The translations under genes and the position numbers were made by a program. A DNA stretch of 64,000 nt from the NCBI GenBank assembly GCA_947488905.1, contig CANLBJ010000002.1:310001-374000 (forward strand), in the 5' to 3' direction. Shown piece by piece: positions 3,502 through 62,190 of the stretch; position 1 is the first letter of the stretch; the number at the start of each line of letters is the position of its first letter. The notes below the pieces were generated by a model. That model made no database searches. It had not been told where the DNA came from and was given only the letters and a program-made list of their open reading frames with translations. This DNA comes from Ulvibacter algarum (lineage in GTDB: Bacteria > Bacteroidota > Bacteroidia > Flavobacteriales > Flavobacteriaceae).

Positions 3502-4863
3502 TCACTCTTCTTCTGCTAGTCTTTTCTGTTCTAAGGCTTGTGCTAACCGCTTTGCAATCACAGGTTTGATAAGCGTTTTTCTTGGGTTGTGTTTTAAAAA
3601 AGGATATAACTCAAGGTCATCTTTCATCCTATCTTGAGTGTTGGGATGCTTGTTAGTACCTAATAATACTAGCTTTCCTTCATTAAACAGTGCTTGCTCT
3701 TTTTCTGCGCTTTCTGCAATCTTGCGTTGTATGGTTCCATCTTTTAATTGAGATAAAAACCCTCCACTAGACTCTATGTCTTTTAACAGGCGCAAGCTTT
3801 TTTCTGCGAGCTCTTGCGTGAGCGACTCTATATAATAACTACCATCTGCAGTGTTGCTCACAGCATCAAAATAGCTTTCTTCTTTTAAAATTAACAATTG
3901 GTTGCGAGATATACGCTCACCAAATTCGTTACTCTTGTGGTAAATAGCATCATACGGCAAATTCATCACCATATCTGCACCGCCTAGTACCGCACTCATA
4001 CACTCTGTTGTGGTACGTAACATATTTACATTATAATCATATAATGTTTTATTGCGTAGTGTGGGGGTGGCAATAATCTTACATTCTGGGTTCACATTAT
4101 GCACTTTTGCTAGTGCAGCATACCCTAGGCGTAACGCACGTATTTTTGCGATTTCAAAAAAGTAATTACTCCCTACGGAAATTTTAAAAGTTAGATAATT
4201 GTTATTTAATGAGTCACTATAATGATTAAGATATTCATTTGCGTGACTTAAAGCATAAGCAATCTGTTGCACCATATTTGCGCCAGCGTTTTGATAGTGT
4301 GAAGTATCAATCAATAGGGCAGTGGGTGTCTTTTTTAATATTTCCGAAGTAATTTTTAAATCTTCTTGCTCTTTACTAAACCAGTTACCGTCTGTCCCTA
4401 AATTACCTATTGGGTCAACTAATACCTGAAGTTGTAAACCATTAGATTTTGCATACGTTTTTAATTCTGTAACAAAATTTGCATCAAGAAAATGAAGGTA
4501 AACTTGTATGAGTATTTTTGAAGTGAAACCATTAAAAACAGTCTTATAATCAAAGGTTTTATGGGCTGTAAAGTATAAGCTCTCTGCGCCACGGCTTGCT
4601 GCATCAAGGGCTAGTGAGTTTACGATAGCCTCGTCATCAATAAATAGATGTTGTCCTATTTTCCAGGAAATAGGCTGTCCAGGTATAGGGATAAAGGGTT
4701 TGTTAAAATCGTCTTGGTGATAAAACGGCTTCACTTTTATGCCTTCTAGACTTTCCCAAATAAGGGTGTCATTATAATCTGCACCTTTAAGGTCTACTTG
4801 AATTTTTTGTTTCCAAGCTTTAGCAGAAACAGGTTCAAAATCTTTAAATAAGTTGGTCTTCAT
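3502..4863 (-). CDS. mutA: Methylmalonyl-CoA mutase, small subunit (short form)
   Basis: This is the non-catalytic partner of MutB. The 453 residues match the mutase barrel (VKPFYHQDDF, VGSNYFFEIAKIRALR, TTTECMSAVLGGADMVMNLPYDA, NTADGSYYIESLTQELAEKS). Small subunits with a vestigial C-terminal flavodoxin-like domain are about 620-640 residues. This one stops shortly after the barrel and has no DxHxxG cobalamin motif, so it is a naturally short form and not a truncation by frameshift; the C-terminus runs to a clean stop. It lies 32 bp downstream of the divIC-like gene, and the lipoprotein gene follows after 57 bp. One TTTCCGAAG dispersed motif (4341-4349) lies in the coding region. Confidence 0.93.
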   Translation of the reverse strand: MKTNLFKDFEPVSAKAWKQKIQVDLKGADYNDTLIWESLEGIKVKPFYHQDDFNKPFIPIPGQPISWKIGQHLFIDDEAIVNSLALDAASRGAESLYFTAHKTFDYKTVFNGFTSKILIQVYLHFLDANFVTELKTYAKSNGLQLQVLVDPIGNLGTDGNWFSKEQEDLKITSEILKKTPTALLIDTSHYQNAGANMVQQIAYALSHANEYLNHYSDSLNNNYLTFKISVGSNYFFEIAKIRALRLGYAALAKVHNVNPECKIIATPTLRNKTLYDYNVNMLRTTTECMSAVLGGADMVMNLPYDAIYHKSNEFGERISRNQLLILKEESYFDAVSNTADGSYYIESLTQELAEKSLRLLKDIESSGGFLSQLKDGTIQRKIAESAEKEQALFNEGKLVLLGTNKHPNTQDRMKDDLELYPFLKHNPRKTLIKPVIAKRLAQALEQKRLAEEE

Positions 4864-4895
4864 CCGGCTATTTTATTTTTCACTACTACAACTAA

Positions 4896-5213
4896 CTACT
4901 TAATACTATCCTCGTGTTCTATAATATAGATGTCTTCGTTTTCTCTTTTGAGATAGTATTTTTCTCGAGCAAATTTTTCTAGCTCTGTGCTATCTTTCAT
5001 TTTTTCGAGAAACTTTTTGTCTTGTTTTATTTCTTCTTTATAGTGGTCTATGTTTTCTTCTATTGCATTGATATCACTGTCAAGCTCATCGTGAATAAAC
5101 CAGTTGTTAGTGTCAAAGAAAAACATCCATATTATGAATAGTAGAAACACGAGCACATACTTGTTGCTCAAAAACCGAAACCACTTTTCTTTTTTTAATT
5201 CTGAGTACTTCAC
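4896..5213 (-). CDS. FtsB/DivIC-type septum formation initiator
   Basis: This small bitopic division protein has 105 residues: a basic cytoplasmic tail (1-19), one membrane segment (about 20-31, VLVFLLFIIWMFF), a heptad-patterned coiled coil (about 40-80) and a C-terminal segment with the family-typical EKFAREKYYLKRENEDIY. In the FtsB/DivIC family this pattern binds the FtsL and FtsQ partners in the periplasm. It starts 3 bp after udk, a neighbourhood I recognise in other Flavobacteriia, and the mutase genes follow. Whether it is called FtsB or DivIC is only a naming choice. Confidence 0.88.
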   Translation of the reverse strand: MKYSELKKEKWFRFLSNKYVLVFLLFIIWMFFFDTNNWFIHDELDSDINAIEENIDHYKEEIKQDKKFLEKMKDSTELEKFAREKYYLKRENEDIYIIEHEDSIK

Positions 5214-5216
5214 AAA

Positions 5217-5851: not shown

Positions 5852-5890
5852 GGGTTTCTTGAAATCGAAATCGAAAACGAAATCGAAAAA
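5851..5890. repeat. GAAATC hexamer array
   Basis: Here GAAATCGAAATCGAAAACG and further GAAATCGAAAA units follow each other with a period of six. Related arrays occur at 8937-8956, 26747-26775, 30495-30541, 35892-35907 and 44503-44522, all between genes. This copy abuts the -7 box of udk. Confidence 0.7.
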
Positions 5891-5937
5891 TGAATAAAAA
5901 GTGAATATTACTTAGCTTTATTTTAATATGATAAATT

Positions 5938-6837: not shown

Positions 6838-7959
6838 TTAAAAATTCAACTTCCTTGAAGTCCCACTAGGCACCGCATCTTTATGCACCGTTACATTTAT
6901 CGCTTTTAAACGCATATATGCCTCACTAAAATAAACATACCCTCCATTTGCATTTCTTTTTTCATCTGTTCCCCAGCTGTTTTTTACTTTGTAATAGGTG
7001 TTTCCGTTTTGGTCTTTTACGGTACCAGTGATGTGCATTAAGTGGTCATCTGTGGTTGTAAAGTTTTCAAACTCGTCTTGACGGTATTCTTGCGTTACTT
7101 TCATTTCTGGGTAGATGGCTGTTAACGCTTTTTCATTATTTGATGTTTCTGCAGGAATAACTGCCACACCATTTTTAGATGAGAAGGTTGCTTCACTCAC
7201 ATCACAATCTAACTCTACAGAAAAACCTTTTGCTAGTGCGTTATCAACTGCTGCCATTAGTTCATCAAGTGGTACATTGTACATACTACCATAACTCCAG
7301 TTGTCTGGAATGTTAAGTATGAAAGACTTATAAAAAGGGGCTTGTGTAAAAGAGGTAAGCGTCACATAATCTGCAGGTTCAATTTTCATTGCTTTTCTGA
7401 AACTTTCTGGTGTGTAGCTTTTTCCTTCAAAAGTAAAATTATTCACGTTTTTACCAAGATAAATGTCTAGCACAGCCTCTGTAGCCGGACGCCATTTTTT
7501 ACTTAGTTTTCTTGCAGGATTATCTACATACGTTTGTGCCATTGCTTTTAAAACAGCAACTAGTTCAGCGTGATTGTGTGAAGTCTCTTGTGCAAAAAGA
7601 CCACTAAAAGCTTCTTGAGGTACTAAGCCGTAATCTGCAACAGAGTTGATTACATCATGTGCAAGACCTCCTTCACTCAATTGCGCTTTGCCTTGACGCA
7701 TTACATAATTGTCTAACTTTTTTGGGTAGGTATTACGTACGGTGTACATTTCAGATAAATCTACTTGTTTACCTGTGAGTCTAATGATCTCAGATTCTAA
7801 AAAAGAAGTGCTAGAAAAACTCCAGCAAGTTCCTGTTCTTCCTTGACTAATAACTGGTGTTGCTTCTAGGTCAATAACATCTGTAAATTGATAAGGAGCT
7901 TGGGCTAGAGTAGAAGCCGTTAGTAGAATACTTCCGAAGAAAAAAATGATTTTACGCAT
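6838..7959 (-). CDS. Secreted C1-family cysteine peptidase (bleomycin-hydrolase/PepC type)
   Basis: This papain-fold peptidase is exported by a signal peptide (residues 1-20, ending LAQ). The catalytic triad can be placed: Cys45 in GRTGTCWSFSS, His309 in DDHLMHITG, and Asn327 in KVKNSWG, with Gln39 supplying the oxyanion hole. The long insert between Cys and His resembles the C1B (bleomycin hydrolase/PepC) group rather than classical papains. At 373 residues it is somewhat shorter than cytoplasmic PepC. A signal peptide on a C1B enzyme is usual in Bacteroidetes and points to periplasmic or secreted peptide degradation. It is monocistronic as far as can be seen. Confidence 0.9.
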   Translation of the reverse strand: MRKIIFFFGSILLTASTLAQAPYQFTDVIDLEATPVISQGRTGTCWSFSSTSFLESEIIRLTGKQVDLSEMYTVRNTYPKKLDNYVMRQGKAQLSEGGLAHDVINSVADYGLVPQEAFSGLFAQETSHNHAELVAVLKAMAQTYVDNPARKLSKKWRPATEAVLDIYLGKNVNNFTFEGKSYTPESFRKAMKIEPADYVTLTSFTQAPFYKSFILNIPDNWSYGSMYNVPLDELMAAVDNALAKGFSVELDCDVSEATFSSKNGVAVIPAETSNNEKALTAIYPEMKVTQEYRQDEFENFTTTDDHLMHITGTVKDQNGNTYYKVKNSWGTDEKRNANGGYVYFSEAYMRLKAINVTVHKDAVPSGTSRKLNF

Positions 7960-12070: not shown

Positions 12071-12079
12071 CTTCGGAAA
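12071..12079 (-). repeat. TTTCCGAAG dispersed motif copy
   Basis: The plus strand reads TTTTACTTCGGAAATGT, 17 bp after the sigma-factor stop. It shares the longer context of the copies at 26820 and 30468. Confidence 0.7.
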
Positions 12080-13180: not shown

Positions 13181-15476
13181 AACGTTGCGAGTTTTTGTTC
13201 TAATTTCTACCCTCTATTTATTAGGGGTAAATCTACTTGCCGCACAATCTTCAGAAAAAGTACCTCTTGAAGATGCCTTACAACTTATAGAAACAGCTTA
13301 CCATATCAAGTTTTCTTTTGCAGATGAAGACATAGGCGGAAAAAGTATTTCGTTGCCAGATATGACCACTATGAGCAAAGATGAGATGGTATACTGGTTG
13401 CAGTTTACCACAAACTTGACTTTTGAAGTGTTATCTGAAAGATACATCTCCATTTATAAAAGTAACAGCACTATCACAAACAATGTAGAGGCATTAAGCG
13501 AGGTTTTAATATTTCATTATCTAGCCCCAGGTATTGCAAAAAATACAGATGGAAGTGTGACTGTTAACCCTTCTTCATTAGGTATATTACCTGGGCTTAT
13601 AGAGCCAGACGCCTTACAAACTATACAGGCTGTTCCTGGTATAACAAGTACAGAAGAAAAAATATCTAACATTAATGTTCGTGGTGGAGCTCACGATCAA
13701 AACCTTTTTCTTTATGAAGGTGTTAAAATGTATCAAACAGGACATTTTTTCGGATTAATATCTGGGTTTAATCCTTATTTGATTGATGAGGTTACCGTCT
13801 ACAAAAATGTTTCTTCTTCTCAATTTTCTGAGGGGATTTCTTCTGTGATTGACATTAGTTTAAAAGATAATATACAGGGAACTAATCAATCTGGTGCTGG
13901 TTTTAATTTTGTGGCGGCAGATGCTTTTTCAAATTTTAAAATTTCTAAAAACACCCGTTTAATGGTCTCTGGTAGAAGGTCATTAACAGATTTTGCTTAC
14001 ACACCCACTTACAGTCAATACAGTAGTAGGATTTTTCAGGACTCTGATTTTTCTAACAATCCTTCTTATACAAGCATTGATAGTGATGAGCAATTTTATT
14101 TTTATGATGCTTCTTTAAAAGTGATGCATGACTTCTCTGATGATGATCAAGTAAGTGCAAATTTACTTTTAATGGATAACAGCCTTAGTTATGCAGAAGA
14201 GGGCTCAGACGGAAGGTCTTCAGGGTCTTTAAGAAGTGGTCTCGAACAGCGTACAGTGCTGGCTAGTATAGATTATGAAAAATCACTATCCTCACAGTGG
14301 AATGTAAGAACACAGGCCTTTGCAAGTAAATATGCCTTAGAGGCTACTAATGTAGATGTGATTAATGATCAGCGATTGTTGCAAGAAAATAGCGTGACAG
14401 AATACGGGCTTAAACTAGATGCAAATTATATAGTATCTAAAAAAATGAGAACTAAATATGGCTATCATTTTACAGAAACAAGCGTAGAGAACTTAACAGA
14501 TGTAAATAGACCAGATTTCAGAAATTTTACTAGAGATGTTCTTAGGTTACATAGTTTGTATGGAGAGGTTCATTATACGTCTAAAAACCAAAAAATAAAA
14601 TTAAAAACTGGAGGTAGAGGTACTTACTATGAGAAATTTGACAATATAAGATTAGAACCTTTTGCAAATTTTCAATGGCAAGCAGATGAAGTGTTTTCAG
14701 TTGATATTTCCGCAGAGACAAAAAGCCAAACTACCTCTCAAATTATAGATTTACAAGATGATTTTTTAGGGATAGAAAAAAGGAGATGGGTGATAGCAGA
14801 TGAGCTAGATAACCCTATAGTTAGGGCAAAAAAACTCTCTGCAGGTGCTGGTTTTAGCAGAAAAAAACTAAATATAACTATTGAGGGGTATATTAAAGAA
14901 GTAAACGGAATTACTACAAGAGGTCAAGGTTTTCAAAATCAATTTGAATTTACAAAGGCAGTGGGTGATTATAATGTTAAAGGAGTAGATGTGTTATTGC
15001 AGAAAGAATGGAAAGGAGTTACTACGTGGTTAGGATATTCTTATGCCAGAAACAAGTATGATTTTAATGAATTGTTACCTCCTATTTTCCCTAATAATCT
15101 TGATATCAGTCACTCATTTAATGCTGCATTAACCTACAAAAGAAAAGGCTTGCAAGTAGGGCTGGGAGCGCGCTATAATACAGGAAAACCTTTTACTGCT
15201 CCTTTAGTGTCAACTCCTGTGATAGATGGAGAGATTACCTTTGAAACTCCTAACTCTTCTAGATTACCAGACTATTTTAAACTAGATTTTTCTACTACCT
15301 ATGTTTTTGAAATTTCAGAAAAAATGAGGGGTAGTATGGGGATTTCTATATGGAATATTTTGAACCGTGAGAATATAATAAATACTTATTATGTATTGAT
15401 TGACGGTACTCCAGTTATTGTTGAAAATAAGGCCTTAGATCTTACGCCAAACTTGAGCTTGAGACTTTATTTTTAA
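13173..15476 (+). CDS. TonB-dependent receptor with N-terminal STN signalling domain
   Basis: The 767-residue outer-membrane transporter starts at GTG inside the fecR end, a coupled overlap of 8 bp. A signal peptide (1-24, ending LLAAQ) precedes an STN/secretin domain (about 28-95, EDALQLIETAYHIKFSFADED). The STN domain links it to the FecR protein. The plug follows (about 105-220: NVRGGAHDQNLFLYEGVKMYQTGHFFG), then a 22-strand-type barrel ending in the aromatic LSLRLYF. There is no SusD-like gene next to it, so it is closer to FecA-type than to SusC-type systems. The substrate (a siderophore, vitamin or oligomer) cannot be told. Its stop overlaps the stop of the convergent DUF2254 gene by 4 bp. 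Confidence 0.93.
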   Translation: MNKTLRVFVLISTLYLLGVNLLAAQSSEKVPLEDALQLIETAYHIKFSFADEDIGGKSISLPDMTTMSKDEMVYWLQFTTNLTFEVLSERYISIYKSNSTITNNVEALSEVLIFHYLAPGIAKNTDGSVTVNPSSLGILPGLIEPDALQTIQAVPGITSTEEKISNINVRGGAHDQNLFLYEGVKMYQTGHFFGLISGFNPYLIDEVTVYKNVSSSQFSEGISSVIDISLKDNIQGTNQSGAGFNFVAADAFSNFKISKNTRLMVSGRRSLTDFAYTPTYSQYSSRIFQDSDFSNNPSYTSIDSDEQFYFYDASLKVMHDFSDDDQVSANLLLMDNSLSYAEEGSDGRSSGSLRSGLEQRTVLASIDYEKSLSSQWNVRTQAFASKYALEATNVDVINDQRLLQENSVTEYGLKLDANYIVSKKMRTKYGYHFTETSVENLTDVNRPDFRNFTRDVLRLHSLYGEVHYTSKNQKIKLKTGGRGTYYEKFDNIRLEPFANFQWQADEVFSVDISAETKSQTTSQIIDLQDDFLGIEKRRWVIADELDNPIVRAKKLSAGAGFSRKKLNITIEGYIKEVNGITTRGQGFQNQFEFTKAVGDYNVKGVDVLLQKEWKGVTTWLGYSYARNKYDFNELLPPIFPNNLDISHSFNAALTYKRKGLQVGLGARYNTGKPFTAPLVSTPVIDGEITFETPNSSRLPDYFKLDFSTTYVFEISEKMRGSMGISIWNILNRENIINTYYVLIDGTPVIVENKALDLTPNLSLRLYF

Positions 15477-16832: not shown

Positions 16833-16841
16833 CTTCGGAAA
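16833..16841 (-). repeat. TTTCCGAAG dispersed motif copy
   Basis: The plus strand reads AACTTCGGAAACGTT in the DUF2254-hsp20 intergenic region, giving the ACGTTTCCGAAG form of the motif on the minus strand. Confidence 0.7.
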
Positions 16842-19031: not shown

Positions 19032-20549
19032 ATGGCAATATTAGGTTCGCTTATCAAAGGCGCAATAGATCTCAAAGACACTTTTACTTCAGAGGGTTCT
19101 CCCGTTACAGAACAACAAGAGGTACTTAAAAGTTTATTAGATCAAGCAAAAAATACAGCCTTTGGTAAATATTATGGTTTTAGTAAAATCTTAGAATCAG
19201 ATACAATTTCTTCTGCATTTGCTAAAGCAATCCCGTTTTATGATTATCATAAAATGAAAAGAGATTGGTGGTGCAAAGTAGAAGATGGGCTTGAAGATAT
19301 TGTATGGCCAGGTAAACCTCGCTATTTTGCATTAAGTAGCGGTACCACAGGAAAAAAGAGTAAACGTATTCCTGTAACAGATGCAATGATTACAGCTATA
19401 CGTGATGCAGGTATACAACAAGTATCTGCGCTATCTAATTTTGATTTGCCTTCAGATTTTTTTGAAAAAGAAATTATGATGCTCGGTAGTTCTACAGATC
19501 TTACAGAAAGAGACGAGTTTTTAGAGGGTGAGATTAGTGGTATATCTGCTAGTAACATTCCTTTTTGGTTTAAAGGTTATTATAAGCCGGGAGAAGATAT
19601 AGCAAAAATAGATGATTGGGATCAACGAGTGCAAACCATAGCAGAACGCGCAAAAGATTGGGACATTGGTGCTTTAAGTGGCATACCTTCTTGGATGGAG
19701 CTAATGCTAAAAAAAGTAATTGAATATCATGGTGTAAAAACGATACATGACATTTGGCCTAACCTACAGGTATTTACAAGTGGTGGTGTGGCTTTTCAGC
19801 CCTATGAAAAAAGCTTTAATTTATTGCTAGACAAACCTATCACAGTTATTGATACTTACTTAGCGAGTGAAGGGTTTATAGCATTTCAGCAGCGACCAGA
19901 GACTACTGCTATGAAGTTGGTTACAGATAACGGGATCTATTTTGAGTTTGTACCATTTAAGCCAGAATATATTCTTGAAGATGGTTCATTAAGTCAAGAT
20001 GCAGATGTAGTAACCCTAGAAAATGTAACAACAGATCAAGATTATGTGTTAATAATGAGTACGGTTTCTGGTACTTGGCGATATTTAATAGGAGATACCA
20101 TAGCTTTTACAGATGTAGAAAAAGCAGAAATCATTATTACTGGAAGAACAAAATTTTTCTTAAATGTTGTAGGTTCTCAGCTTTCGGTAAATAAAATGGA
20201 TACGGCGTTAAGAGAGTTAGAACAAAAATTTGATATTGAGATTCCTGAGTTTACAGTAGCTGCTGTACAAAAAGATGGAGCGTTTTACCATCATTGGTAT
20301 TTAGGTACAGAGAGTGATATTGACACAGGAAAACTAAGAGATGCCTTAGATGAAGCGCTGAAAGAATCAAATAAAAATTATAGAGTTGCCAGAAGTAAAT
20401 CATTAAAAGGAGTTATTGTTAGCACAGTCTCTCCTTCAAAATTTAATGACTGGAATGGTGAAAACAAGAAAAAAGGAGGTCAGGTAAAAATGGCACGAGT
20501 GATGAAAGAAGATAAATTTAAAGATTGGCAAGCCTTTGTGGGAGAATAG
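19032..20549 (+). CDS. GH3-family acyl-acid amido synthetase-like protein
   Basis: The 505-residue protein belongs to the GH3 family of the ANL (adenylating) superfamily, in which plant members join amino acids to jasmonate or auxin. An adenylation P-loop-like motif is visible (about 100: ALSSGTTGKKSKRIPVT), followed by SGGVAFQPYE, YLASEGFIAFQQ and the ISGTWRYLIGDTIAFTD-type segment (SGTWRYLIGDTIAFTD). The C-terminal domain (about 385-500) ends GGQVKMARVMKEDKF. Bacterial members have no assigned substrate that I can name. A lipoprotein gene follows after 38 bp and may be in the same transcript. A weak TAAATTTA box lies at 19005-19012. Confidence 0.9.
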   Translation: MAILGSLIKGAIDLKDTFTSEGSPVTEQQEVLKSLLDQAKNTAFGKYYGFSKILESDTISSAFAKAIPFYDYHKMKRDWWCKVEDGLEDIVWPGKPRYFALSSGTTGKKSKRIPVTDAMITAIRDAGIQQVSALSNFDLPSDFFEKEIMMLGSSTDLTERDEFLEGEISGISASNIPFWFKGYYKPGEDIAKIDDWDQRVQTIAERAKDWDIGALSGIPSWMELMLKKVIEYHGVKTIHDIWPNLQVFTSGGVAFQPYEKSFNLLLDKPITVIDTYLASEGFIAFQQRPETTAMKLVTDNGIYFEFVPFKPEYILEDGSLSQDADVVTLENVTTDQDYVLIMSTVSGTWRYLIGDTIAFTDVEKAEIIITGRTKFFLNVVGSQLSVNKMDTALRELEQKFDIEIPEFTVAAVQKDGAFYHHWYLGTESDIDTGKLRDALDEALKESNKNYRVARSKSLKGVIVSTVSPSKFNDWNGENKKKGGQVKMARVMKEDKFKDWQAFVGE

Positions 20550-21387: not shown

Positions 21388-21498
21388 GTGAGAGAGCAAG
21401 AGGCGCAAATAAGATTTAATAGCTCGTGGGAGTCATTAAACAAAGAGCAAAAAGATGAAATTATTTTAAAATTTCCGAAGAATATAATAGATAATTAA
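21388..21498 (+). CDS. Possible 36-residue ORF (GTG start)
   Basis: A GTG-started frame of 36 codons begins six bases after the lipoprotein stop and encodes a charged peptide with SWESLNKEQKDEIILKFP. It contains a TTTCCGAAG motif at 21472-21480 and overlaps the stop of the convergent metallopeptidase-like gene by four bases. It may be a short gene, a remnant of a longer one, or chance; the upstream frame is closed. Confidence 0.25.
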   Translation: MREQEAQIRFNSSWESLNKEQKDEIILKFPKNIIDN

Positions 21499-22106
21499 TG
21501 CTCGTTAATTAAATGCATTACCTCTTCTGGAGACATATATAACCTACGTAGCTTCGCCTTATATTTTTCTGAAATATCTGCGTGATCAAGAATAAAGCTT
21601 TTTGTTTTTAAGATATAATCACCCATTCCGTGTTTAATAGCATAGGTATCTGCAGCGCGTTCTACTTCTTGAATATGTGCAGAGGAGAATAAATATTTAA
21701 TTCCGAAAATCAACATCCCAAAACTAGAGCGATCTCTATAATCCATTACATGACCTAACTCGTGACCAAGCCACCCTATCATCACATCTTTTGGTACATC
21801 ATTTATAGATAACTCTTTAGAGTCAATCTGTATTTTACGACTTATTTTTATAACGTAAGCTCTGTTTTTCTTTCCTTTAAAAAAACTAAAAAACTTAGGC
21901 TGTGCTTGCATAGTAGATTTTTTAATATTGTCTTTAAAGACAAAACTAATATCTGTTTTTGCTAATTCTGGGTAATGTGATAATGCAATAAGTGCTTCTT
22001 CTTTAATAGATGAAGGTATTGTTTTATTGTCAAGAGATATTTCTGTGGTTGCTATCATACTTAGCGGAAAATACAAGAATGCAATTAAAAAGTATGTTAA
22101 GGGCAT
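21495..22106 (-). CDS. Exported zinc-metallopeptidase-like protein
   Basis: The 203-residue protein has an N-terminal signal or anchor (about 1-20, FLIAFLYFPLSMIA) and a gluzincin-like HExxH motif at about residue 118 (WLGHELGHVMDY), followed by a glutamate-containing helix (EVERAADTYAIKHGM) that suits the third zinc ligand. It is small for a complete M48 peptidase and has no further transmembrane helices. I therefore call it metallopeptidase-like and make no claim about activity. It is 29 bp downstream of uvrB on the same strand, so it may be transcribed with it. Confidence 0.8.
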   Translation of the reverse strand: MPLTYFLIAFLYFPLSMIATTEISLDNKTIPSSIKEEALIALSHYPELAKTDISFVFKDNIKKSTMQAQPKFFSFFKGKKNRAYVIKISRKIQIDSKELSINDVPKDVMIGWLGHELGHVMDYRDRSSFGMLIFGIKYLFSSAHIQEVERAADTYAIKHGMGDYILKTKSFILDHADISEKYKAKLRRLYMSPEEVMHLINEH

Positions 22107-24150: not shown

Positions 24151-24266
24151 AGGATTATTTCTGCGGAAATGTGCTGCATTGACAATAGCTTAACATTTTT
24201 GAAAAAGACCACTATCACTGAAAGAACAAAGTAGAAAGACCGCTGTTTTAAAAGATAATATATGCT

Positions 24267-39870: not shown

Positions 39871-40559
39871 TATTTTTTGGCTAAAAATTTATTGACATTA
39901 TCTAAATCTTCTTTAAAATCAATTTCCATACAGTTGAACTGTGAGATGTCTACAGCCTTTACTTTGGCGCCATCTTTTTCAATCATTAACTCTAGTCCTC
40001 GTTCAAAATAGTCATTTGCATCACACTCCTCAAGACGATTAATAAAATGATTTATATCGTTTTTAGAGATAAAATTAACACCAACAGCTTCACCTAAACC
40101 GTTTTTAACTTCTTTAGAAAGCTCGTTTATAAAACCATTTTCTAAAGTATATTTTACTTCTTCATCTGCAACAGACTCTGTGTTTACAGATACAAAAGAG
40201 ATGTCTTCCTCTATATGTGGTAGTAAAACTTCTATCAGTTTTCTGTCAAAAACTACATCGCCATTAAACCAAAGCACACTTTCACCTTGACATTTCCGAA
40301 GTGCTAAAAGCAAACTTTTTGAGGTGTTTGTTCGATCAAAATAAGGGTTATAAATATAAGCCATCTGTGGGAAGGCTTCCATAATACTATTCTTTTTAAA
40401 ACCTACAACTGTAAATAGATTTTCTAAAGAAAAATAATGGTCAATATTTTCTGTCATCATTTGCATAATGCTCTTTCCGTTACTTAATGGTGTAAGTGGT
40501 TTTGGGAAAGGGTTTCCTAATCTAGAACCGATACCGGCTGCTAAAATTACTAACTTCAT
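39870..40559 (-). CDS. Nucleotidyltransferase (LicC/sugar-nucleotide type)
   Basis: The 229-residue protein starts with the nucleotidyltransferase signature KLVILAAGIGSRLGNPFPKPLTPL, including the G-x-G-x-R and PK residues. A later acidic WFNGDVVFDRKLIE is the metal-binding region. Sequence length and the GIGSRL pattern fit the phosphocholine/CDP-polyol cytidylyltransferase (LicC) side of the family rather than the longer hexose-1-phosphate enzymes. Its end shares its last base with the CDP-glycerol transferase-like gene, and it overlaps the fusion transferase gene by 4 bp, so it is part of that transcript. Confidence 0.82.
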   Translation of the reverse strand: MKLVILAAGIGSRLGNPFPKPLTPLSNGKSIMQMMTENIDHYFSLENLFTVVGFKKNSIMEAFPQMAYIYNPYFDRTNTSKSLLLALRKCQGESVLWFNGDVVFDRKLIEVLLPHIEEDISFVSVNTESVADEEVKYTLENGFINELSKEVKNGLGEAVGVNFISKNDINHFINRLEECDANDYFERGLELMIEKDGAKVKAVDISQFNCMEIDFKEDLDNVNKFLAKK

Positions 40560-42397
40560 GAGTTGTTTTTTGGGTTATTTTGAATAATCTGTCTTAACTT
40601 TAAGTATTTTAAAAATGTAGTGTAAGCACTAAAAGTGCAAATTACAAAACCATTAAATCCGTCTAAAATTCCTAGACGTAAAATATAGCCTTTAAAAAAT
40701 GTCCAGGTAGGTTTTAAAATGACATCTGCCAGGTTAGAAGTTCTTCCTAGGTCATAATATTCTTTTGCAGCAATAGAAGAAAATTTATGAACTTTAAGAC
40801 TGTGCTGTTCATAAGAGGTGTGTACCCAGTGTAAAATCGCTCCATCTACTATTTTCTTTTTACATTTAGGCCCTAGTTGTATAGTGTCATGAGGGTTTAT
40901 ACCTCCCCAGCTAGCTAGTCTGCGGTCAAAAATACGTAATTTTCTATCAGGATTCCAACCAGAAAATTGTATCCATTGGCCGCAATAATTGTTATAACGT
41001 TGTGCAAAGTAGCCGCTACAATCCCAGTTTGTTTTTAGTCTTAAAATAGAAGTTTGAAGCTCTTTACTTAAAGCTTCATCTGCATCTAATGAAATGATTC
41101 TGTCGTTTTTAGCCAAAGCTATGGCAGCATTTTTTTGCTGAATATGCCCCACAAATGTTTGTTGTTCAAAACGTACAGGATATTGCTCACAGATTTCTTT
41201 TGTTCTGTCTGTGCTATAAGAATCTAAGATGACAATATCTTTTGTAACTGGTAATAAAGATTCTATGCACCTAGCAATGTTTTTTTCTTCATTAAATGTA
41301 ATTACAGTAGCAGAGTATTCTTGTTCTTGTGGCGTTATGATCTCACCGGTAACAAACTCGTGTAGCTTCGGAAATATTAAAGAAGGTTCAAATTTTTGAT
41401 AATGTTTTCCTGCATTTTTCTTTGCAGATTTTTTATTACTGAAATGTGGATTATAATCTATATAATCAAATAAATGAACAGAGACGTGTTTACGCCCATC
41501 TTCATAAATGTTCCAAGAGCCTTTTTTAATCCAAGGACAAAAAATTGAAAAAGTTGGGATATCGATGGCTTTAGCCATATTTGTTGCGCCACCTTCATTA
41601 CCAATTAAGGCATCACATTGAGATGTAAGCGCTATAAATGAACGTAGACTTTTTCCGAAGATATCAAGACGAATTGCTTTTTGAGTCTCTGGGGTACATA
41701 AACTATAAAGCTTTTTTGCGTCTTCTTCTTGTGACGGTATGTAGTTAAAGAGTAGGGTAGCGGCTGTATTTGCTACTAAATAATCTAGCAATTTTGCCAT
41801 ATATGCAAGCGGATAGGTTTTAAAGCTATCGCTACCTAATACGCTAATCATATAAAGTTTTTTGCTAAAATCTATTCCGTTTTTTTCTAACAGTAGTTTA
41901 GCATCTTTCTTTTCTTGATCTGTAAGGTAAATTTTAGGTTGGCGTTTGGTTTGCTTAATGTCTAATAAAGGCTCTAAAAGTTTACATCTATTTTCTATAG
42001 CTAGACCAGCAGCAGAGAGAGATAGTTTTTGCCTTTGTACTGTGTGAGAGTAGGCAACAGCTGTGTACCATTTTTTATAAGAAATTCTATATTGAGCTCC
42101 AGAAGTTTTTGCAATCCAGGCACTACTAATTTTTGAGTAGGCATCAATAACAACATCGTATTTTTCTGCTTTAATGTTTTCGCGAAGTTGTTTAAAAACT
42201 TTTTTGTCTTTATCCATCTCTGGCGTAAACTCAACAATCTTTGCTATCAAAGGGTTGTTTAATACAACTGGGACTGTGCTAGTATTAACTAAAAAGTGCA
42301 ACTCTGATGTAGGGAAACGCTCTTTGAGAATCTCAAAGAGAACGGTAGACGTTAATACGTCTCCTATCATTTTTTGCTGTATGATTAATACTTTCAT
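40556..42397 (-). CDS. Fusion of GT9 heptosyltransferase and KdtX-type GT2 glycosyltransferase
   Basis: The 613-residue protein has two enzymes in one chain. Residues 1 to about 350 are a WaaF/WaaC-type heptosyltransferase (VLIIQQKMIGDVLTSTVLFEIL, YDVVIDAYSKISSAWIAKTSG, and the ADP-heptose-binding DALIGNEGGATNMAKAIDIPTF). Residues about 363-613 are a KdtX/WaaE-like GT2 (YSATVITFNEEKNIARCIES, LDSYSTDRT, SLDADEAL, and an HWVHTSYEQ region) that adds a sugar to the LPS inner core. Such a fusion would couple two sequential core-building steps. The stretch 355-363 looks like the linker. The upstream gene is a small membrane protein; the downstream gene is the nucleotidyltransferase. Confidence 0.9.
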   Translation of the reverse strand: MKVLIIQQKMIGDVLTSTVLFEILKERFPTSELHFLVNTSTVPVVLNNPLIAKIVEFTPEMDKDKKVFKQLRENIKAEKYDVVIDAYSKISSAWIAKTSGAQYRISYKKWYTAVAYSHTVQRQKLSLSAAGLAIENRCKLLEPLLDIKQTKRQPKIYLTDQEKKDAKLLLEKNGIDFSKKLYMISVLGSDSFKTYPLAYMAKLLDYLVANTAATLLFNYIPSQEEDAKKLYSLCTPETQKAIRLDIFGKSLRSFIALTSQCDALIGNEGGATNMAKAIDIPTFSIFCPWIKKGSWNIYEDGRKHVSVHLFDYIDYNPHFSNKKSAKKNAGKHYQKFEPSLIFPKLHEFVTGEIITPQEQEYSATVITFNEEKNIARCIESLLPVTKDIVILDSYSTDRTKEICEQYPVRFEQQTFVGHIQQKNAAIALAKNDRIISLDADEALSKELQTSILRLKTNWDCSGYFAQRYNNYCGQWIQFSGWNPDRKLRIFDRRLASWGGINPHDTIQLGPKCKKKIVDGAILHWVHTSYEQHSLKVHKFSSIAAKEYYDLGRTSNLADVILKPTWTFFKGYILRLGILDGFNGFVICTFSAYTTFLKYLKLRQIIQNNPKNNS

Positions 42398-44599: not shown

Positions 44600-44608
44600 T
44601 TTCCGAAG
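44600..44608 (+). repeat. TTTCCGAAG dispersed motif copy
   Basis: ACATTTCCGAAGAGAAAAG, 28 bp before the def ATG, flanked by AGAAC and GTTCT arms that are partly inverted. Confidence 0.7.
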
Positions 44609-48648: not shown

Positions 48649-49980
48649 CTATAAAAGCCCTCTCGCTTTAATCTCTAGATATTTATTAATAGTGTTTACA
48701 GTAAGGTCTTCTGGGGCAGTTAAAACTGTTTGAATTCCTCTTTGTTGGAGTTCACGTACCATTAATTTTTTATCAAACTGAAATTGTTCTGCTATGGTTT
48801 GGTCATAAATTTCTGGGAGCGTTTTTGCGTCAACTTCACTTAAAACTCTTAGTTCTGTATTTTCAAAAAACACTACTACTAGCACATGTTTTTTTGAGAT
48901 GGCTTGTAAATAGGGTAGTTGCCTATGCAAAGATGATATGTGCTCAAAATTTGTATATAACATTAACAAGCTTCTGTGTGTAATGCGTTGTTTTACAAAT
49001 GCTTGTAAAGCTCCAAAATCACTATCTAAAAACTGTGTGTTTGTGTTGTAGAGTGTATCAAGAATAGTATTGAGATATGTTTTTTTAGCAACAGCCGGCA
49101 GATAGTTTCCTATTTTATGAGAAAAATCTAGTAGTCCTACTTTGTCGTTTTTCTTTAAAGCAATATTACTAAAAGCTAACGCACTGTTAATTGCATAATC
49201 AACTAGTTTTAAGCCTTTAAATGGCATTTTCATCACTCTGCTAGTGTCTATTATATTATAGACTGGTTGCATTTTTTCGTCTTGGTATTGATTAACCATT
49301 AAGGCACCTCGCTTTGCAGTTGCCTTCCAGTTTACGTTACGTACATCATCACCAATTACATAATCTTTAATTTGCTCAAACTCCATGGTTTGGCCTATGC
49401 GTCTTATTTTTTTTAATCCGGCAAGACTTAATCTATTATCAATAGCAAGAAAGTCATACTTTTTCATTTGGATAAAAGAAGGGTATACTTTTACTAGCTG
49501 TTCATTATCAAAAATATAACGTTTCCGAAGTAATCCTATTACCGAAGAAGCGTAACAGTTTAATTTTCCGAAGCTATACTCACCACGATCAACAGGGCGA
49601 ACCATATATTGAAACGTTTGCCTTTCTTTTCCTTTAATATTTATAGATTTAAAAAAATCTCTTTTCTGAAATTGTACAGGTAGCTCATCAATAATGGCCA
49701 CTTTTATGTTAAACGTGTACTTATTTTCTAATTGTATGAGTACTTCATTAGGATCACTATTACTAAATTTATCTGGCAAAACTCTTTTACCTTTTAATCC
49801 TTTACCGCTCCATAGCATACTAGCGTCTATGAGTAAAAGAAGACCAAAAGCAAGTACGGCAAGCCAAACGATGCCATAGATTGCTGGCTGCCAAAAACTC
49901 ACTAAAAAAGCTATTGAAAGTAGTGCAAGCGCATAAAATATGCGTGGTGGTAGGTAAAGTGATTTGATGAATTTAATCAA
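48649..49980 (-). CDS. DUF58-domain membrane protein
   Basis: The 443-residue protein has two N-terminal membrane helices (about 13-35 and 38-55) and a C-terminal DUF58 domain with the family segment KDYVIGDDVRNVNWKATAKRG followed by LMVNQYQDEKMQPVYNIIDTSR, similar to a von Willebrand A-like fold. DUF58 proteins nearly always stand next to MoxR-type AAA+ ATPases, and they are thought to be the substrate or partner. It is the last gene of a six-gene operon, and the MoxR gene ends 3 bp before it. Two TTTCCGAAG copies (49522-49530, 49565-49573) fall in its coding sequence. Confidence 0.9.
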   Translation of the reverse strand: MIKFIKSLYLPPRIFYALALLSIAFLVSFWQPAIYGIVWLAVLAFGLLLLIDASMLWSGKGLKGKRVLPDKFSNSDPNEVLIQLENKYTFNIKVAIIDELPVQFQKRDFFKSINIKGKERQTFQYMVRPVDRGEYSFGKLNCYASSVIGLLRKRYIFDNEQLVKVYPSFIQMKKYDFLAIDNRLSLAGLKKIRRIGQTMEFEQIKDYVIGDDVRNVNWKATAKRGALMVNQYQDEKMQPVYNIIDTSRVMKMPFKGLKLVDYAINSALAFSNIALKKNDKVGLLDFSHKIGNYLPAVAKKTYLNTILDTLYNTNTQFLDSDFGALQAFVKQRITHRSLLMLYTNFEHISSLHRQLPYLQAISKKHVLVVVFFENTELRVLSEVDAKTLPEIYDQTIAEQFQFDKKLMVRELQQRGIQTVLTAPEDLTVNTINKYLEIKARGLL

Positions 49981-57556: not shown

Positions 57557-58093
57557 TTATTCTATTGATTTTAAAGTTACTGTACTCTTTACAGGAACAT
57601 TAGCTCCTATTTTATCTATAATACCATAATAGCCATAAGCCTTATGTGAAGGAAACAGAAACGTTACCATTTCTCCTTCTCTCATTAATTTTAAGCCTTG
57701 TCTTATTCCGGTAATTAATTCTTGATTTGTTTGGTCTATTACAAATTCTTGAACGCCATTTTCTTGTTCAGATAGAATCATATTACCGTCAAGGTCAACT
57801 ACATTATAAGTGAACTTAACAAGATCGCCAAATTTTGCAGTTGCAGTCCCTAGGGTATCTTTAGTTCTGTAAAAATACCAGAAGCCATTGTCTGATGTTA
57901 TGTACTCCTCCTTTGGGTTTGCAGCCATTATTGCAGCAATTTGTGCTTCTTCTGCTTCAACAAGTTTTTTATTGCGTTCAATAGATGCGTCAATAAATGT
58001 TCCAGAGTTTTGCTGTACAGGTTGTCTAGCCTCTGGAGTTTTACACCCCTGAAGTAATGATACTATACCTATTATAAAAAGTAGTTTATGCAT
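57557..58093 (-). CDS. gldI: Gliding motility lipoprotein GldI (FKBP-type PPIase)
   Basis: GldI is required for gliding and type IX secretion in Flavobacterium johnsoniae. The 178-residue protein has lipobox LQGC (Cys 17), a short charged N-terminal helix (EEAQIAAIMAANPKEEYITSDNGFWYFYRTKD), and an FKBP domain (about 85-178: KFGDLVKFTYNVVDLDGNMIL, GIRQGLKLMREGEMVTFLFPSHKAYGYYG). The match in size, signal and N-terminal motif is good. It overlaps the DHH phosphoesterase gene by 8 bp and precedes the cyclophilin-FKBP gene, forming a fold-assistance operon. Confidence 0.9.
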   Translation of the reverse strand: MHKLLFIIGIVSLLQGCKTPEARQPVQQNSGTFIDASIERNKKLVEAEEAQIAAIMAANPKEEYITSDNGFWYFYRTKDTLGTATAKFGDLVKFTYNVVDLDGNMILSEQENGVQEFVIDQTNQELITGIRQGLKLMREGEMVTFLFPSHKAYGYYGIIDKIGANVPVKSTVTLKSIE

Positions 58094-59108
58094 GTGCTAA
58101 AAGCTGGTCTTTATAATGTGGCAATATACTAATAAAATAGCTAATTGTTTTTGCAAGTGATTCGTCGCTTTTTCCGCCAGCAGCATTGTTGTGACCGCCT
58201 CCATGAAAATGTTCTCTACTCACTAAATTAACATTAAAATCTCCTTTACTACGCAGTGATATTTTGACAATATTGTTCTTTCTATCTTCTATAAAAATGG
58301 CAGCAAAAATAATGCCTTTTACAGATAGTGCATAATTAACAAAGCCTTCTGTATCTCCTTTCTGAAATTTATTTTCATCAAGTTCTTTTTGAGACAAGCT
58401 AATAAATGCGGTTCTGTACTCAGGGAAAATCTGCATATTATTAAGTGCAACTCCTAGTAGCTTAAGACGTTCTGGAGAGCTAGAGTCGTATACATGCTCG
58501 TGTATTAAATGATGTTTAATACCCGTATTTTTAAGATGTGCAATAACGTTATGCGTTGCAGCCGTTGTACTAGCAAACCTAAATGATCCCGTATCTGTCA
58601 TAATACCAGTATATATGTTTGTAGCAATATCTTCGGAAATATGCTCAGCTTCACCCATAGCTTCTATAAAATGAAATACCATCTCACAAGTAGACCCCAT
58701 AGCGGTATCACTATATGTTAAAACAGCATAATCATCTGGAGATTGATGGTGATCTATCATTATATAGTCTGCTGTTGCATTTGTCAACGCATCTTGCATA
58801 TCACCCACACGAGTAAAAGAATTGAAATCTAAAGTACAAATGATGTCAGCATTATTAATAAGATCGTCTGCTTGAGCTTTGTTTTGATTGTATATCAAAA
58901 TGTCTTCAGAGGCTGGCATCCATTTTAAGAAATCTGGAAAATCATTTGGGACAATAACCTGTGTATCGTGTCCTTGACTTTTCAGAAATAAAGATAGGGC
59001 AGAGGTAGACCCTACGGCATCACCATCTGGGTTTTTATGACCTACAATTACTATTTTTTTTGACCCATCTAAGAGCTTCTTTGCTATTACTATTTGTGCT
59101 TCATTCAT
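58086..59108 (-). CDS. DHH-family phosphoesterase (NrnA-like)
   Basis: The 340-residue cytoplasmic protein shows the DHH-DHHA1 layout. Residues 20-40 (GHKNPDGDAVGSTSAL) form the first metal motif, DHHQSP at about 120 is the DHH signature, and the DHHA1 C-terminus carries EHFHGGGHNNAAGG. NrnA enzymes degrade nanoRNA and pAp. The first gene of a three-gene operon, it is placed by a TATCTTTG box five bases before its ATG, and overlaps gldI by 8 bp. Confidence 0.93.
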   Translation of the reverse strand: MNEAQIVIAKKLLDGSKKIVIVGHKNPDGDAVGSTSALSLFLKSQGHDTQVIVPNDFPDFLKWMPASEDILIYNQNKAQADDLINNADIICTLDFNSFTRVGDMQDALTNATADYIMIDHHQSPDDYAVLTYSDTAMGSTCEMVFHFIEAMGEAEHISEDIATNIYTGIMTDTGSFRFASTTAATHNVIAHLKNTGIKHHLIHEHVYDSSSPERLKLLGVALNNMQIFPEYRTAFISLSQKELDENKFQKGDTEGFVNYALSVKGIIFAAIFIEDRKNNIVKISLRSKGDFNVNLVSREHFHGGGHNNAAGGKSDESLAKTISYFISILPHYKDQLLAHA

Positions 59109-59205: not shown

Positions 59206-60030
59206 ATGAATAAAAATTTTACGCTACTATTTTTGATTTTAATAAGCTTCTCTTGTAGTGCTCAAAAACTCGATAAAATAAAAGGAAACAAAGAAGTTGT
59301 TGATATTTATGAAACGCTAGAAGCCTTTACTTCTCTAGAGGTGAGTAGTGGTTTAGAGATTTCTATAAAGCAAGGAGATGAAGAAGGGTATCACTTAGAG
59401 GCAGATTCTAACTTAGTAGATGTGATCTCTTTTGAGGTTGTAGAAGATAAGCTTCATATTTATGCTAAAAGTAGTATTCAATCTAGTAAGCGATTAAAAA
59501 TAGATCTTACAGTTGCTAATCTTGATATGATAACTATTAATGATGGCGCAGAAATAAATACATTAAATAAAATTGAAGCAACATCTTTAACACTTGTTGT
59601 GTTAGATAATAGTGAGTACAAGCTAGATCTTAAAGCAGATGAATTGTCTGTTACTATGGGTGGTAGTAGTAAAGGTGACCTTGCTTTTAAAGGCGAAAAG
59701 CTTTCTGTTACACTTAATGATAATAGTACCTTAAAGGGAGACCTAACAATCACGGAGTGTGTGCTAGCAGTAAATGAAAAGGCAGATTTTGATATGGATG
59801 GTGATGTTGTAGATTTAAATCTAACCATAACAGGCACTGCAAGTGTAAAGGCAAGTGTACTACGTGCAGAAACTGTAAATTTAATTGCATCAGACAATTG
59901 TGATATATATGTAAATGCCACTAAAAACCTTACCATTTACGCGCAAGATAAAAGTACAATCAATCTCTACGGAAATCCAGAAATAATTATTGAAGGATTT
60001 AAAGATTCTAGTAGACTTATAAAGAAATAA
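59206..60030 (+). CDS. DUF2807 (GIN-domain) exported protein
   Basis: The 274-residue protein has an N-terminal signal (1-20, ISFSCSAQ) that may be a lipoprotein or a standard cleavage site. The rest is one repetitive right-handed beta-helix-like DUF2807/GIN domain: LEVSSGLEISIKQGDEE, IDLTVANLDMITINDGAEI, and VDLNLTITGTASVKASVLRAE with frequent T/S/N positions. Proteins of this type in Bacteroidetes are predicted autotransporter-head-like adhesive or scaffold elements. It is followed after 162 bp by ndk. Confidence 0.85.
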   Translation: MNKNFTLLFLILISFSCSAQKLDKIKGNKEVVDIYETLEAFTSLEVSSGLEISIKQGDEEGYHLEADSNLVDVISFEVVEDKLHIYAKSSIQSSKRLKIDLTVANLDMITINDGAEINTLNKIEATSLTLVVLDNSEYKLDLKADELSVTMGGSSKGDLAFKGEKLSVTLNDNSTLKGDLTITECVLAVNEKADFDMDGDVVDLNLTITGTASVKASVLRAETVNLIASDNCDIYVNATKNLTIYAQDKSTINLYGNPEIIIEGFKDSSRLIKK

Positions 60031-60668: not shown

Positions 60669-60692
60669 ATGCTCTAGAGTTACTGGGTTTTA

Positions 60693-61052
60693 TTATTCTA
60701 CTTTCACTTTAATTGGTCCTCCACTAGAAACCCACGATCCACCTATCTCATCAATATTAACATCAAGCTCATCTGTAGTATTAATACTATTTAAACTTAC
60801 TTTAACCTCATCATAGGTATCAACGCTTTTAAGATTTACATTCATTTCATCACTCGTATTAATATCTACAATACGCACATCCATCACCTGGTTAGGCATT
60901 ACAGGAACTAAATGGTATTCTACCTCAGGTTTATCTGTATTGTTATTTGCAGCGTGTGCAGTTGGTATAATGTCTAAGTTGTTGATAACGTTAATAGTTA
61001 AGCAAACGGCGATCACTGTTAAAATGACTTTTGTGTAAGTATCTGTTTTCAT
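60693..61052 (-). CDS. Small exported protein with 13-residue repeats
   Basis: The 119-residue protein has an N-terminal helix (about 8-24, VILTVIAVCLTINVINN) followed by AHA, likely a signal peptide or anchor. Residues 57-105 consist of four 13-residue units: MDVRIVDINTSDE, MNVNLKSVDTYDE, VKVSLNSINTTDE and LDVNIDEIGG, each with a [MVL]-x-V-x-[IL] strand and a [ST]-x-[DE]-E turn. This suggests a short repeated beta structure. Ten bp separate it from the upstream cyclase gene, so the two are probably co-transcribed. No family is recognised. Confidence 0.75.
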   Translation of the reverse strand: MKTDTYTKVILTVIAVCLTINVINNLDIIPTAHAANNNTDKPEVEYHLVPVMPNQVMDVRIVDINTSDEMNVNLKSVDTYDEVKVSLNSINTTDELDVNIDEIGGSWVSSGGPIKVKVE

Positions 61053-61062
61053 AAAGTATGGT

Positions 61063-62190
61063 TTAAGATTTTACTTTTAGTTTTTTATAGGTTACTAGCG
61101 CTACATCTTCTGCTTTTCCTTTGAGGGTTTCTTCTCCCATATCATAGGCTTTAACTCCTTTGGGCAACTCTACTGCAATCGTAGCAAAACTTTTTGAGGC
61201 TAATATCTCTACGTCAAGATCATTGCAGGCAGCTGTAATTCTAGCAGCTGTATTTAATACATCTCCAGAAAATACAATCTCTCTTTTTATCTGTCCTATC
61301 TCACCAACCATAACTGGGCCAAAATGAATTCCCACTTTAAAAGAAGGAGCAACACCATACTTTTTTATGTAGCGGGGTGCTTTATAGGTAATAATCTTAC
61401 GCATACTATAATAACATTGTAAGACATTCCCTTTTTTTAGTCCGTTTTTCATTTTCCAAGAGATCACTACTTCATCACCCACGTATTGATACACCTCACC
61501 ACGAGTCTGTACAATAGCAGGAGCAATGTCTCTAAAAAAATCTTTTAAAAAGTTAAAGTATTTTTCTTCGCCTAGTTCTTCTGCTATGGTGGTAGCATCT
61601 TTTATATCTGCAAACATAAAAATACGTCGCTCATTTTTTGGGTGAAAGTATCTACCCATCAAATAATCTGGAAACACCCCAGGACCGTACTTGTCATTAA
61701 TCATAAACACAATTAAAGTAGATAATACGATCACTAACCAAATAAAGAAGTTTTTAATAAAAACCCATTCTTTAAAGAACCCTTTAAGTTCGTGTAAAAC
61801 CTCAGGGTGAAATATAGGCTTCCCTAGCCCTTCACTGTAATAATACAATCCAGCTGCGCTACCCACAACAAGGGCTGCCAGGGTATAAGTTATGGTGATT
61901 AAAATAAGAGCCTTCCAGAAAGCATATTTCCGAAGCCATCGTTCCATAAGGTTTACCGTAACAATACCTCCTATAAGCCCTGCAGATACAGCAACAATTA
62001 AGTTAGTTATAAAAGATTGCTTAAAATCATATAATGTAGTGAGTGCTTTGTGTTCTATAAGTGTAAAATATTCAAAATAAAACAGCACTAAGGCGATAAT
62101 TGTCCAAGAAAATAACACTAAAAGTGCCCGTCTGGTGTAAAACCATAATTGGCGTTTAGAATAACTTTTAAAACGTGGTGCTTTTGCCAT
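61063..62190 (-). CDS. Membrane-bound class III adenylate/guanylate cyclase
   Basis: The 375-residue protein has four membrane helices (about 18-38, 50-70, 88-118, 140-160) and a cytoplasmic cyclase homology domain (about 190-365): FADIKDATTIAEELGEEKYFNFLKDFF (metal-binding Asp), VYQYVGDEVVISWKMK (second Asp and the substrate loop), VGIHFGPVMVGEIG and VFSGDVLNTAARI with the Asn-Arg pair for transition-state contact. Nucleotide choice cannot be told from here. Sensing by the membrane part is inferred. A short exported repeat protein follows after 10 bp. A TTTCCGAAG copy (61927-61935) is in the coding region. Confidence 0.9.
   Translation of the reverse strand: MAKAPRFKSYSKRQLWFYTRRALLVLFSWTIIALVLFYFEYFTLIEHKALTTLYDFKQSFITNLIVAVSAGLIGGIVTVNLMERWLRKYAFWKALILITITYTLAALVVGSAAGLYYYSEGLGKPIFHPEVLHELKGFFKEWVFIKNFFIWLVIVLSTLIVFMINDKYGPGVFPDYLMGRYFHPKNERRIFMFADIKDATTIAEELGEEKYFNFLKDFFRDIAPAIVQTRGEVYQYVGDEVVISWKMKNGLKKGNVLQCYYSMRKIITYKAPRYIKKYGVAPSFKVGIHFGPVMVGEIGQIKREIVFSGDVLNTAARITAACNDLDVEILASKSFATIAVELPKGVKAYDMGEETLKGKAEDVALVTYKKLKVKS

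Follow-up and report, generated by a model that had tools for sequence, protein, structure and literature searches.

A dispersed nine-base word in Ulvibacter algarum and other Flavobacteriaceae as a candidate DNA uptake sequence

Why does one short word recur so often, and on both strands, in a piece of a flavobacterial genome? The question is raised by TTTCCGAAG in a stretch of 64,000 nucleotides from Ulvibacter algarum (contig CANLBJ010000002.1 of assembly GCA_947488905.1, positions 310,001 to 374,000), which as a whole is referred to as the window. An original prediction, made from the letters of the window, listed 18 copies and noted the bases A-Y-R ahead of 15 of them. All 18 are found at the coordinates and strands it gave, compared with a mean of 0.33 and a maximum of 3 in 100 dinucleotide shuffles, and 15 of the 18 do have the extended form AYRTTTCCGAAG (0.05 expected). 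We consider TTTCCGAAG to be, probably, the core of a DNA uptake word. This reading is by analogy: taken together, the features match the anatomy of the uptake signal sequences (USS) and DNA uptake sequences (DUS) of other bacteria, and it is the combination of a high-copy core, strand symmetry, tolerance within genes, intergenic excess, AT context, inverted pairs, dialects and turnover that leads to it.

The window belongs to a genome of 3.55 Mb (G000), in which the word was counted along with its reversed sequence as a control. TTTCCGAAG occurs 817 times (409 on the plus and 408 on the minus strand) and the reversed word 58 times (32 and 26); for the 12-mer, the counts are 312 (156 and 156) and 7 (4 and 3), respectively. 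The spacing of the 9-mer is approximately one copy per 4.3 kb, and its density in the window is ordinary (18 copies, about 15 by the genome mean), while full 12-mers make up a larger share in the window (15/18) than in the genome (312/817). After low-complexity filtering, the highest-ranking 8- to 10-mer either equals or includes the word, both in the window and in the genomes G005, G006 and G008 of the same genus. For a codon-aware expectation, which the original prediction had proposed as a yardstick, we used a sample of 464 kb, composed of the window and 20 stretches of 20 kb from one contig of G000, together with our own simple gene calls. Among its 123 sites, 78 fall into predicted genes, about 50-fold above the 1.5 obtained in synonymous-codon shuffles (maximum 5 in 40), and 45 fall into the 10.7% of intergenic DNA, about 170-fold above the 0.27 of a Markov null trained with the word masked. 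Thus, the word lies far above expectation on both strands, in genes and more densely between them.

Its placement is irrespective of promoter context. The intergenic sites of the sample are distributed over the gap types ++, -+, -- and +- as 16, 11, 11 and 7, on 13.0, 13.4, 12.8 and 8.3 kb, respectively, and this spread (divergent 11, convergent 7, codirectional 27) roughly follows gap length. Such a length-dependent distribution is not that of an operator; a promoter element or transcription factor operator was rejected, as convergent gaps are as densely occupied as divergent ones and 78 of the 123 sites lie inside genes. Genic sites are oriented 30 in sense and 48 in antisense (p 0.05). A strand-bias test, also proposed by the original prediction, revealed no replication polarity in 13 sampled stretches between 350 and 1000 kb, all of positive GC skew, which hold 38 plus and 38 minus sites; over all 20 sampled stretches, the strand counts are 54 and 51. 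Each 20 kb of the sampled contig holds 3 to 9 sites, and a test for even spacing gave a slight, non-significant under-dispersion (p ~0.14).

The core is asymmetric, TTTCCGAAG being different from its reverse complement CTTCGGAAA, and it tolerates substitution at particular positions. Position 7 accepts C, T or G: TTTCCG[CTG]AG is found 31 times in genes of the sample, compared with 4.5 expected. One-mismatch forms amount to 147 in G000 versus 64 expected, chiefly at positions 5 and 7. A scarce form in genes of the G000 sample is TTTCCGAA with A, C or T as the next base (1 versus 8.0 expected). The scarcity gives the impression that near-miss words are selected against or undergo conversion; it is unclear in most other sampled genomes. 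A second word, the palindrome ATTTCWGAAAT (e.g., at 12252, 14515 and 62353), is enriched in the G000 sample and the window, with strand-counts of 24 versus 0.47 expected in intergenic DNA and 14 versus 3.1 in genes; TTTCWGAAA is mildly enriched in word-negative genomes as well.

Outside the core's edge, the flanks of the sites show an AT pattern. For the window's genus, AT-only triplets peak near -36 to -26, -19 to -13, -7 to -4 and +9 to +14 and dip at -24 to -22 and +18 to +20, with z ranging from -3.4 to +8.3 (n=182 sites from four genomes). In five other genera, the downstream AAA at +9 to +12 alone is clear (n=249). Around the reversed word, no AT flank pattern is seen (n=22). The sites are also oriented with respect to genes: 33 of the 45 intergenic ones point to the nearer gene (p 0.0025), and of the 14 that have a stop codon as their nearest gene boundary, no more than 20 bp away, 13 point towards the gene concerned. 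Neighbours less than 400 bp apart are most commonly outward-facing, with 12/16 in G000, 4/7 in G005, G006 and G008 and 19/45 in other genera, compared with 0, 1 and 6 inward-facing ones, respectively; no outward-facing excess was seen for neighbours 400 bp to 3 kb apart. Both the orientation at stop codons and the outward pairs would be expected from the long 5' AT flank, since intergenic DNA accommodates such a flank best and two outward-facing sites can have one in common.

Conservation in close relatives, a further check put forward by the original prediction, is evident. In G005, the closest relative of G000 (77.7% DNA identity), 7 of 10 alignable G000 sites are exact, 2 are tolerated variants (TTTCCGCAG or TTTCCGTAG), 1 is substituted and 0/10 are gapped, whereas ordinary 9-mers are identical in 13.9% of cases; of the window sites alone, 6/9 are exact. 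From G005 to G000, 7/10 sites are exact, 3 substituted and 0/10 gapped. For distant pairs (~70-73% identity; identical 9-mers, 6-8%), each taken in either direction and aligned with less certainty, 6/28 aligned sites are exact and 3 gapped. The exact ones are 0/3 for G000 sites, 2/3 from G005 to G008, 1/3 from G006 to G008 and, for sites of G008, 0/4 in G000, 2/5 in G005, 1/7 in G006 and 0/3 in word-negative relatives; the gapped ones are G008 sites (2/7 versus G006, 1/3 versus the word-negative set), and a few other rows have insertions. Given the gap-free substitutions in the close pair and the few exact sites at a distance, the alignments suggest that sites are mostly gained and lost by point mutation, being held in the short term and turned over in the long term.

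The individual sites of the window reflect the same division. Nine are genic and nine intergenic, although intergenic DNA makes up only 8.4% of the window by our own gene calls, in good agreement with the half share first noted. Antisense in genes lie the plus-strand sites 4341-4349 (minus-strand gene 3502-4863, TSEI frame; exact in G005), 24835-24843 (minus-strand gene 24267-26693; exact), 40293-40301 (gene 39870-40559; substituted to TTTTTTAAG in G005 with no gap), 41652-41660 (gene 40556-42397; exact), 49522-49530 and 49565-49573 (both in gene 48649-49818) and 61927-61935 (gene 61063-62190). Sense sites, both on the minus strand and exact in G005, are 41366-41374 (FPK, again in gene 40556-42397) and 58631-58639 (ISED, gene 58086-59108). 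Three of the nine genic sites, those starting at 40293, 49522 and 61927, read LRK with the codon CGG, as had been predicted; this codon is indeed rare (58 of 138,192 codons in the 464-kb sample, 5 of them inside the word).

Among the intergenic sites, 12071-12079 (minus) follows the stop of the gene ending at 12054 by 16 bp, 21472-21480 (plus) lies between convergent genes, 14 bp from the stop of 21495-22106, and 35175-35183 (plus) is 3 bp from the stop of 35187-35828. The sites 35934-35942 (minus) and 35985-35993 (plus), 51 bp apart between divergent genes, are the left and right halves of an outward-facing pair. The remaining ones are 16833-16841 (minus), 26820-26828 (plus; tolerated variant TTTCCGCAG in G005), 30468-30476 (minus; tolerated variant TTTCCGTAG in G005) and 44600-44608 (plus; exact in G005). 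Tolerated variants within the window are TTTCCGTAG at 4173-4181 and 59967-59975 (both minus), of the class TTTCCG[CTG]AG enriched in the genome sample, and TTTCCGCAG at 14707-14715 (plus) and 24161-24169 (minus). All near variants listed beforehand exist, namely TTTCCGCAG at 14704 and 24162, TTTCCGCAT at 56371, and ATTTCAGAAAT at 12253 and 62353. Short GAAATCGAAA-type repeats were additionally seen at two distant places, 5859-5899 and 30491-30531.

How far does the word extend beyond this genome? A-Y-R stands as a flank preferred in the window's genus but is too narrow as a consensus for the family, where the core is HTTCCGAAG. We called a genome word-rich when HTTCCGAAG occurred at least 3 times as often as the reversed control and at least 0.12 times per kb; two thresholds were applied because, with varying base composition, the reversed word gives a rough measure. 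Accordingly, 27 of 299 Flavobacteriaceae genomes are word-rich, and these 27 belong to 17 genera (hand count), and 2 more pass the ratio only. The highest counts are 2,611 in G304 (control 202), 2,020 in G096, 2,001 in G022 and 1,795 in G269, with strands about equal. Outside the family, none of the genomes examined (145 of 149 of the class, hand count) reaches 0.12 per kb; 12 exceed 3 times the control, an effect of the rarity of the control in these genomes. In the set of 42 named genomes (of 80 loci), a clear excess of the 9-mer is found in Cochleicola only (613 versus 76). The genome of Cochleicola gelatinilyticus, a member of the Flavobacteriaceae, agrees in its 9-mer counts with G072, in which HTTCCGAAG occurs 1,447 times. 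Pukyongia (201/76), Flagellimonas sp. S3867 (138/54), Salegentibacter (235/98) and Sinomicrobium (310/130) also have more than 2 times the control.

Lineages differ in dialect. A or C at position 1 accounts for 1,445 of the 2,611 copies in G304 and for 44 of 861 in G000, about control level there; other genera take A or C at position 1 together with the downstream AAA, the window's genus T together with the wider AT context. The 11 genomes of the latter genus are themselves divided: the 9-mer is present in 326 to 967 copies in G000, G005, G006, G008 and G009 (59% complete), but the other six, 1.7 to 2.1 Mb in size and 77-90% complete, reach 18 to 57, close to their control level or under it. 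In the word-negative relatives G010 and G007, no substitute dialect word of comparable strength was found in 60 kb each.

An inspection of strong words in ten named 20-kb loci gave five tandem or local repeats (L071, L055, L034, L021, L011), palindromes at 3 and 2 places in L040 and L017, and the TTTCCGAAG word itself in L003. L019, from a Flavobacterium metagenome-assembled genome (MAG), has six dispersed copies of CTTCAGAAAG (reverse complement CTTTCTGAAG; at 781, 2545, 14219, 16933, 17697 and 19472) compared with 0.19 expected per 20 kb, which could be a T-centred dialect of the TTTCCGAAG word. In L059 (Flavobacterium sp. ZT3R18), GCTATCGGGA is repeated at 436, 3806, 4606, 4614, 8743 and 8751 and forms the self-complementary CCCGATAGCTATCGGG at two places; these are probably hairpin elements. 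L021 (Allomuricauda taeanensis) has a telomere-like 7-bp tandem array of CCCTTAA at 19640-19684, and L011 (Olleya namhaensis) an array of ~60-bp units at 7007-7496 with GAGGAGGCC in each. DapD proteins 83% and 82% identical to the window's flavobacterial one are encoded on L045 and L068; these MAG contigs bear the titles Bifidobacterium breve and Chitinophaga pinensis, which look wrong.

A machinery for DNA uptake has been described in the genus Riemerella, placed in the Flavobacteriaceae by the authors. According to PMC8459023, R. anatipestifer transforms with no pilus homologues found, and ComEC, DprA, ComF, RecA, DUF5689, helix-hairpin-helix and DUF1343 proteins as well as an outer-membrane protein with a carboxypeptidase-regulatory domain are essential; Riemerella columbina is reported to prefer its own DNA (PMC7965970). 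The window's genome resembles Riemerella in encoding ComEC and, on contig 1 at 175.2-180.3 kb, a 953-aa CarboxypepD_reg protein that adjoins a 728-aa protein with two DUF5689 domains; the search covered these genes. The 728-aa protein starts with a lipobox followed by KDDD, which we take to be a surface-export signal of flavobacterial lipoproteins, and a gene near the pair is presumably recA. That the CarboxypepD_reg protein is a beta-barrel is a prediction of PMC8459023. Searches of solved structures with the lipoprotein and the barrel candidate gave no match. Two DUF5689 domains (open frames of 713-756 aa) occur in several word-positive genomes (L154:8144-10330 from G000, L138, L139, L143-L146) and one (~480 aa) in most other genomes; the word-negative G150 has two.

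A tree of the barrel candidate, built by a quick method from 40 of 44 genomes (G001, G002, G009 and G323 are without a row) and representing a single gene rather than the species, requires 3 changes of the word-poor label versus 11.1 in shuffles, and 4 of the word-rich label versus 11.7. Word-poor rows are nested among word-rich ones, and the window's genus does not form one clade. As far as one gene's tree goes, the word would have been gained once and lost at least twice. The small-genome species of the window's genus are a case of apparent loss. The word is shared by a clade with lineage dialects, the clade structure coming from that one tree. The word label changes 6 times on the lipoprotein tree and 3 times on the barrel tree, so we refrain from stating that the receptor follows the word.

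From the observed words, their excess, flanks, maintenance and turnover, the family spread and the machinery genes, we infer a receptor and a building force. A surface DNA receptor of a pilus-less flavobacterial transformation machinery would bind HTTCCGAAG, reading TTTCCGAAG within its patterned AT context in the window's genus. Binding would favour uptake of kin DNA, and recombination of imported fragments would add copies and preserve them at any place where the sequence can bear one. The pair of barrel and DUF5689 lipoprotein could be this receptor, a guess by analogy with Riemerella genetics. The DUS receptor ComP is a pilin; it is possible, if somewhat doubtful, that we see a third, convergent origin of kin-biased uptake, with an old HTTCCGAAG in genus dialects and with a barrel and a DUF5689 lipoprotein in place of a pilin.

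The comparison with known systems is instructive in both directions. USS of the Pasteurellaceae have a 9-bp core, AT-rich segments and two subclade dialects, with 1,465 core copies in Haemophilus influenzae (PMC1626085, PMC7811141); they share with our word the 9-bp core, AT-rich flanks, dialects across a family and an orientation bias within genes, as described for uptake words in PMC2346458. Unlike in USS, where it lies on the 3' side, the AT context is here two-sided and longest upstream, the sequence is unrelated, and the phylum is another one, in whose transformable Riemerella species no pilus genes were found (PMC8459023). DUS of the Neisseriaceae comprise eight dialects of one core, abundant inverted pairs and thousands of copies (PMC3630211), all of which have counterparts here; DUS differ in sequence and are reported without flanking motifs (PMC1626085). 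The word is unrelated to the USS and DUS cores AAGTGCGGT, ACAAGCGGT and GCCGTCTGAA as printed in PMC1626085. Riemerella differs from our case in that no uptake word is given as established and that the first k-mers in the table of PMC7965970 are A-rich.

Several observations weigh against an uptake word. Of the 42 named genomes, 37 stay under 2 times the control, including Maribacter, Winogradskyella, Flavobacterium, Chryseobacterium and Aquimarina. Since Chryseobacterium (two genomes) is among these, the self-preference of Riemerella is not ascribable to the word by analogy. We know of no word-positive species that is competent. The upstream AT pattern is limited to the window's genus among the genera sampled, and TTTCAGAAG shows a similar downstream AT excess (n=84, z ~5), so that the downstream part may be shared with this related word. 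Pfam recognizes the regulatory domain alone in the barrel candidate. PF18942 matches occur in 42/44 genomes (41 over the cut-off) and ComEC in 43/44, word-negative ones included. Presence or absence of a receptor gene consequently failed as the cause of the word; with the machinery equally present without it, loss of the word would mean a loss or change of specificity.

Among the readings offered by the original prediction, the uptake signal fits best, again by analogy and with the likelihood stated at the outset, and a chromosome-organising site is its live rival, albeit an unlikely one. An abundant nucleoid protein with a contact of ~50 bp (core plus AT tracts), serving packaging, segregation or division control, would account for the long structured flanks in the window's genus and for sites spread all along the sampled contig, and the frequent close outward-facing pairs could be cooperative double sites. 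It fits poorly with up to 2,611 copies per genome, numbers far above those of parS, matS or Noc sites, with the genic majority of the sampled sites, and with a word at background in six species of the window's genus, which is odd for a core chromosome function.

Less probable still is a Chi-like recombination hotspot word for AddAB/RecBCD. The spacing in G000 would suit it, Chi being similarly numerous per genome in Escherichia coli, and PF12705 (AddB/RecB-type nuclease) matches in 32/32 genomes tested. This option of the original prediction is nevertheless disfavoured by the equal strand counts over the 13 stretches of positive GC skew and by the strong intergenic excess and AT context, which to our knowledge are not features of Chi. 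Word-negative genomes carry AddAB-type genes just as the others do, and AddAB loss as the cause of word loss therefore failed.

A HIP1-like origin, in which a DNA methyltransferase or a repair system linked to one creates or preserves the word, is improbable to a greater degree. HIP1 is hyper-abundant as well, and low or nearly absent in some cyanobacteria (PMC4390886), much as our word is in some lineages. HIP words, however, are palindromic and tied to methyltransferases, whereas TTTCCGAAG is asymmetric with position-specific flanks reaching to -36, which also disfavours the methylation target of the original prediction. A signal at the RNA level, e.g., a terminator or processing site after stop codons, would explain the 13 of 14 sites pointing towards a nearby stop codon; it is very improbable, as copies lie in coding sequence both ways and also between divergent genes, and as the long 5' AT flank would explain the orientation too. 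A small mobile-element remnant, suggested by a word that is dispersed and repeated, is the least probable of all and was rejected, as 0/10 sites are gapped in each direction between G000 and G005 (some gaps appear in the distant, less certain alignments).

Uptake words as a kind are well known; the sequence, the phylum and the likely machinery are new to us. In the open-licence literature, none of the titles among the matches listed for TTTCCGAAG concerns flavobacteria, matches for TTCCGAAG with flavobacteri are unrelated by title, and titles and abstract starts among the matches listed for uptake sequences in Flavobacteriaceae or Bacteroidetes do not report the word. Sequence tags for transformation are well known in only two unrelated bacterial families, and the uptake genes of this phylum were screened only in 2021, with no pilus among them. 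If TTTCCGAAG is an uptake word, it would represent a third origin of sequence-tagged, kin-biased transformation with unrelated machinery. It would supply the DNA substrate for finding the flavobacterial receptor as well as a practical handle for transforming these bacteria, and would let one test whether uptake words exist to keep foreign DNA out or build up as a by-product of the bias of a receptor. Otherwise, a reader of up to 2,600 sites per genome in 17 genera is still undescribed in the open-licence literature searched.

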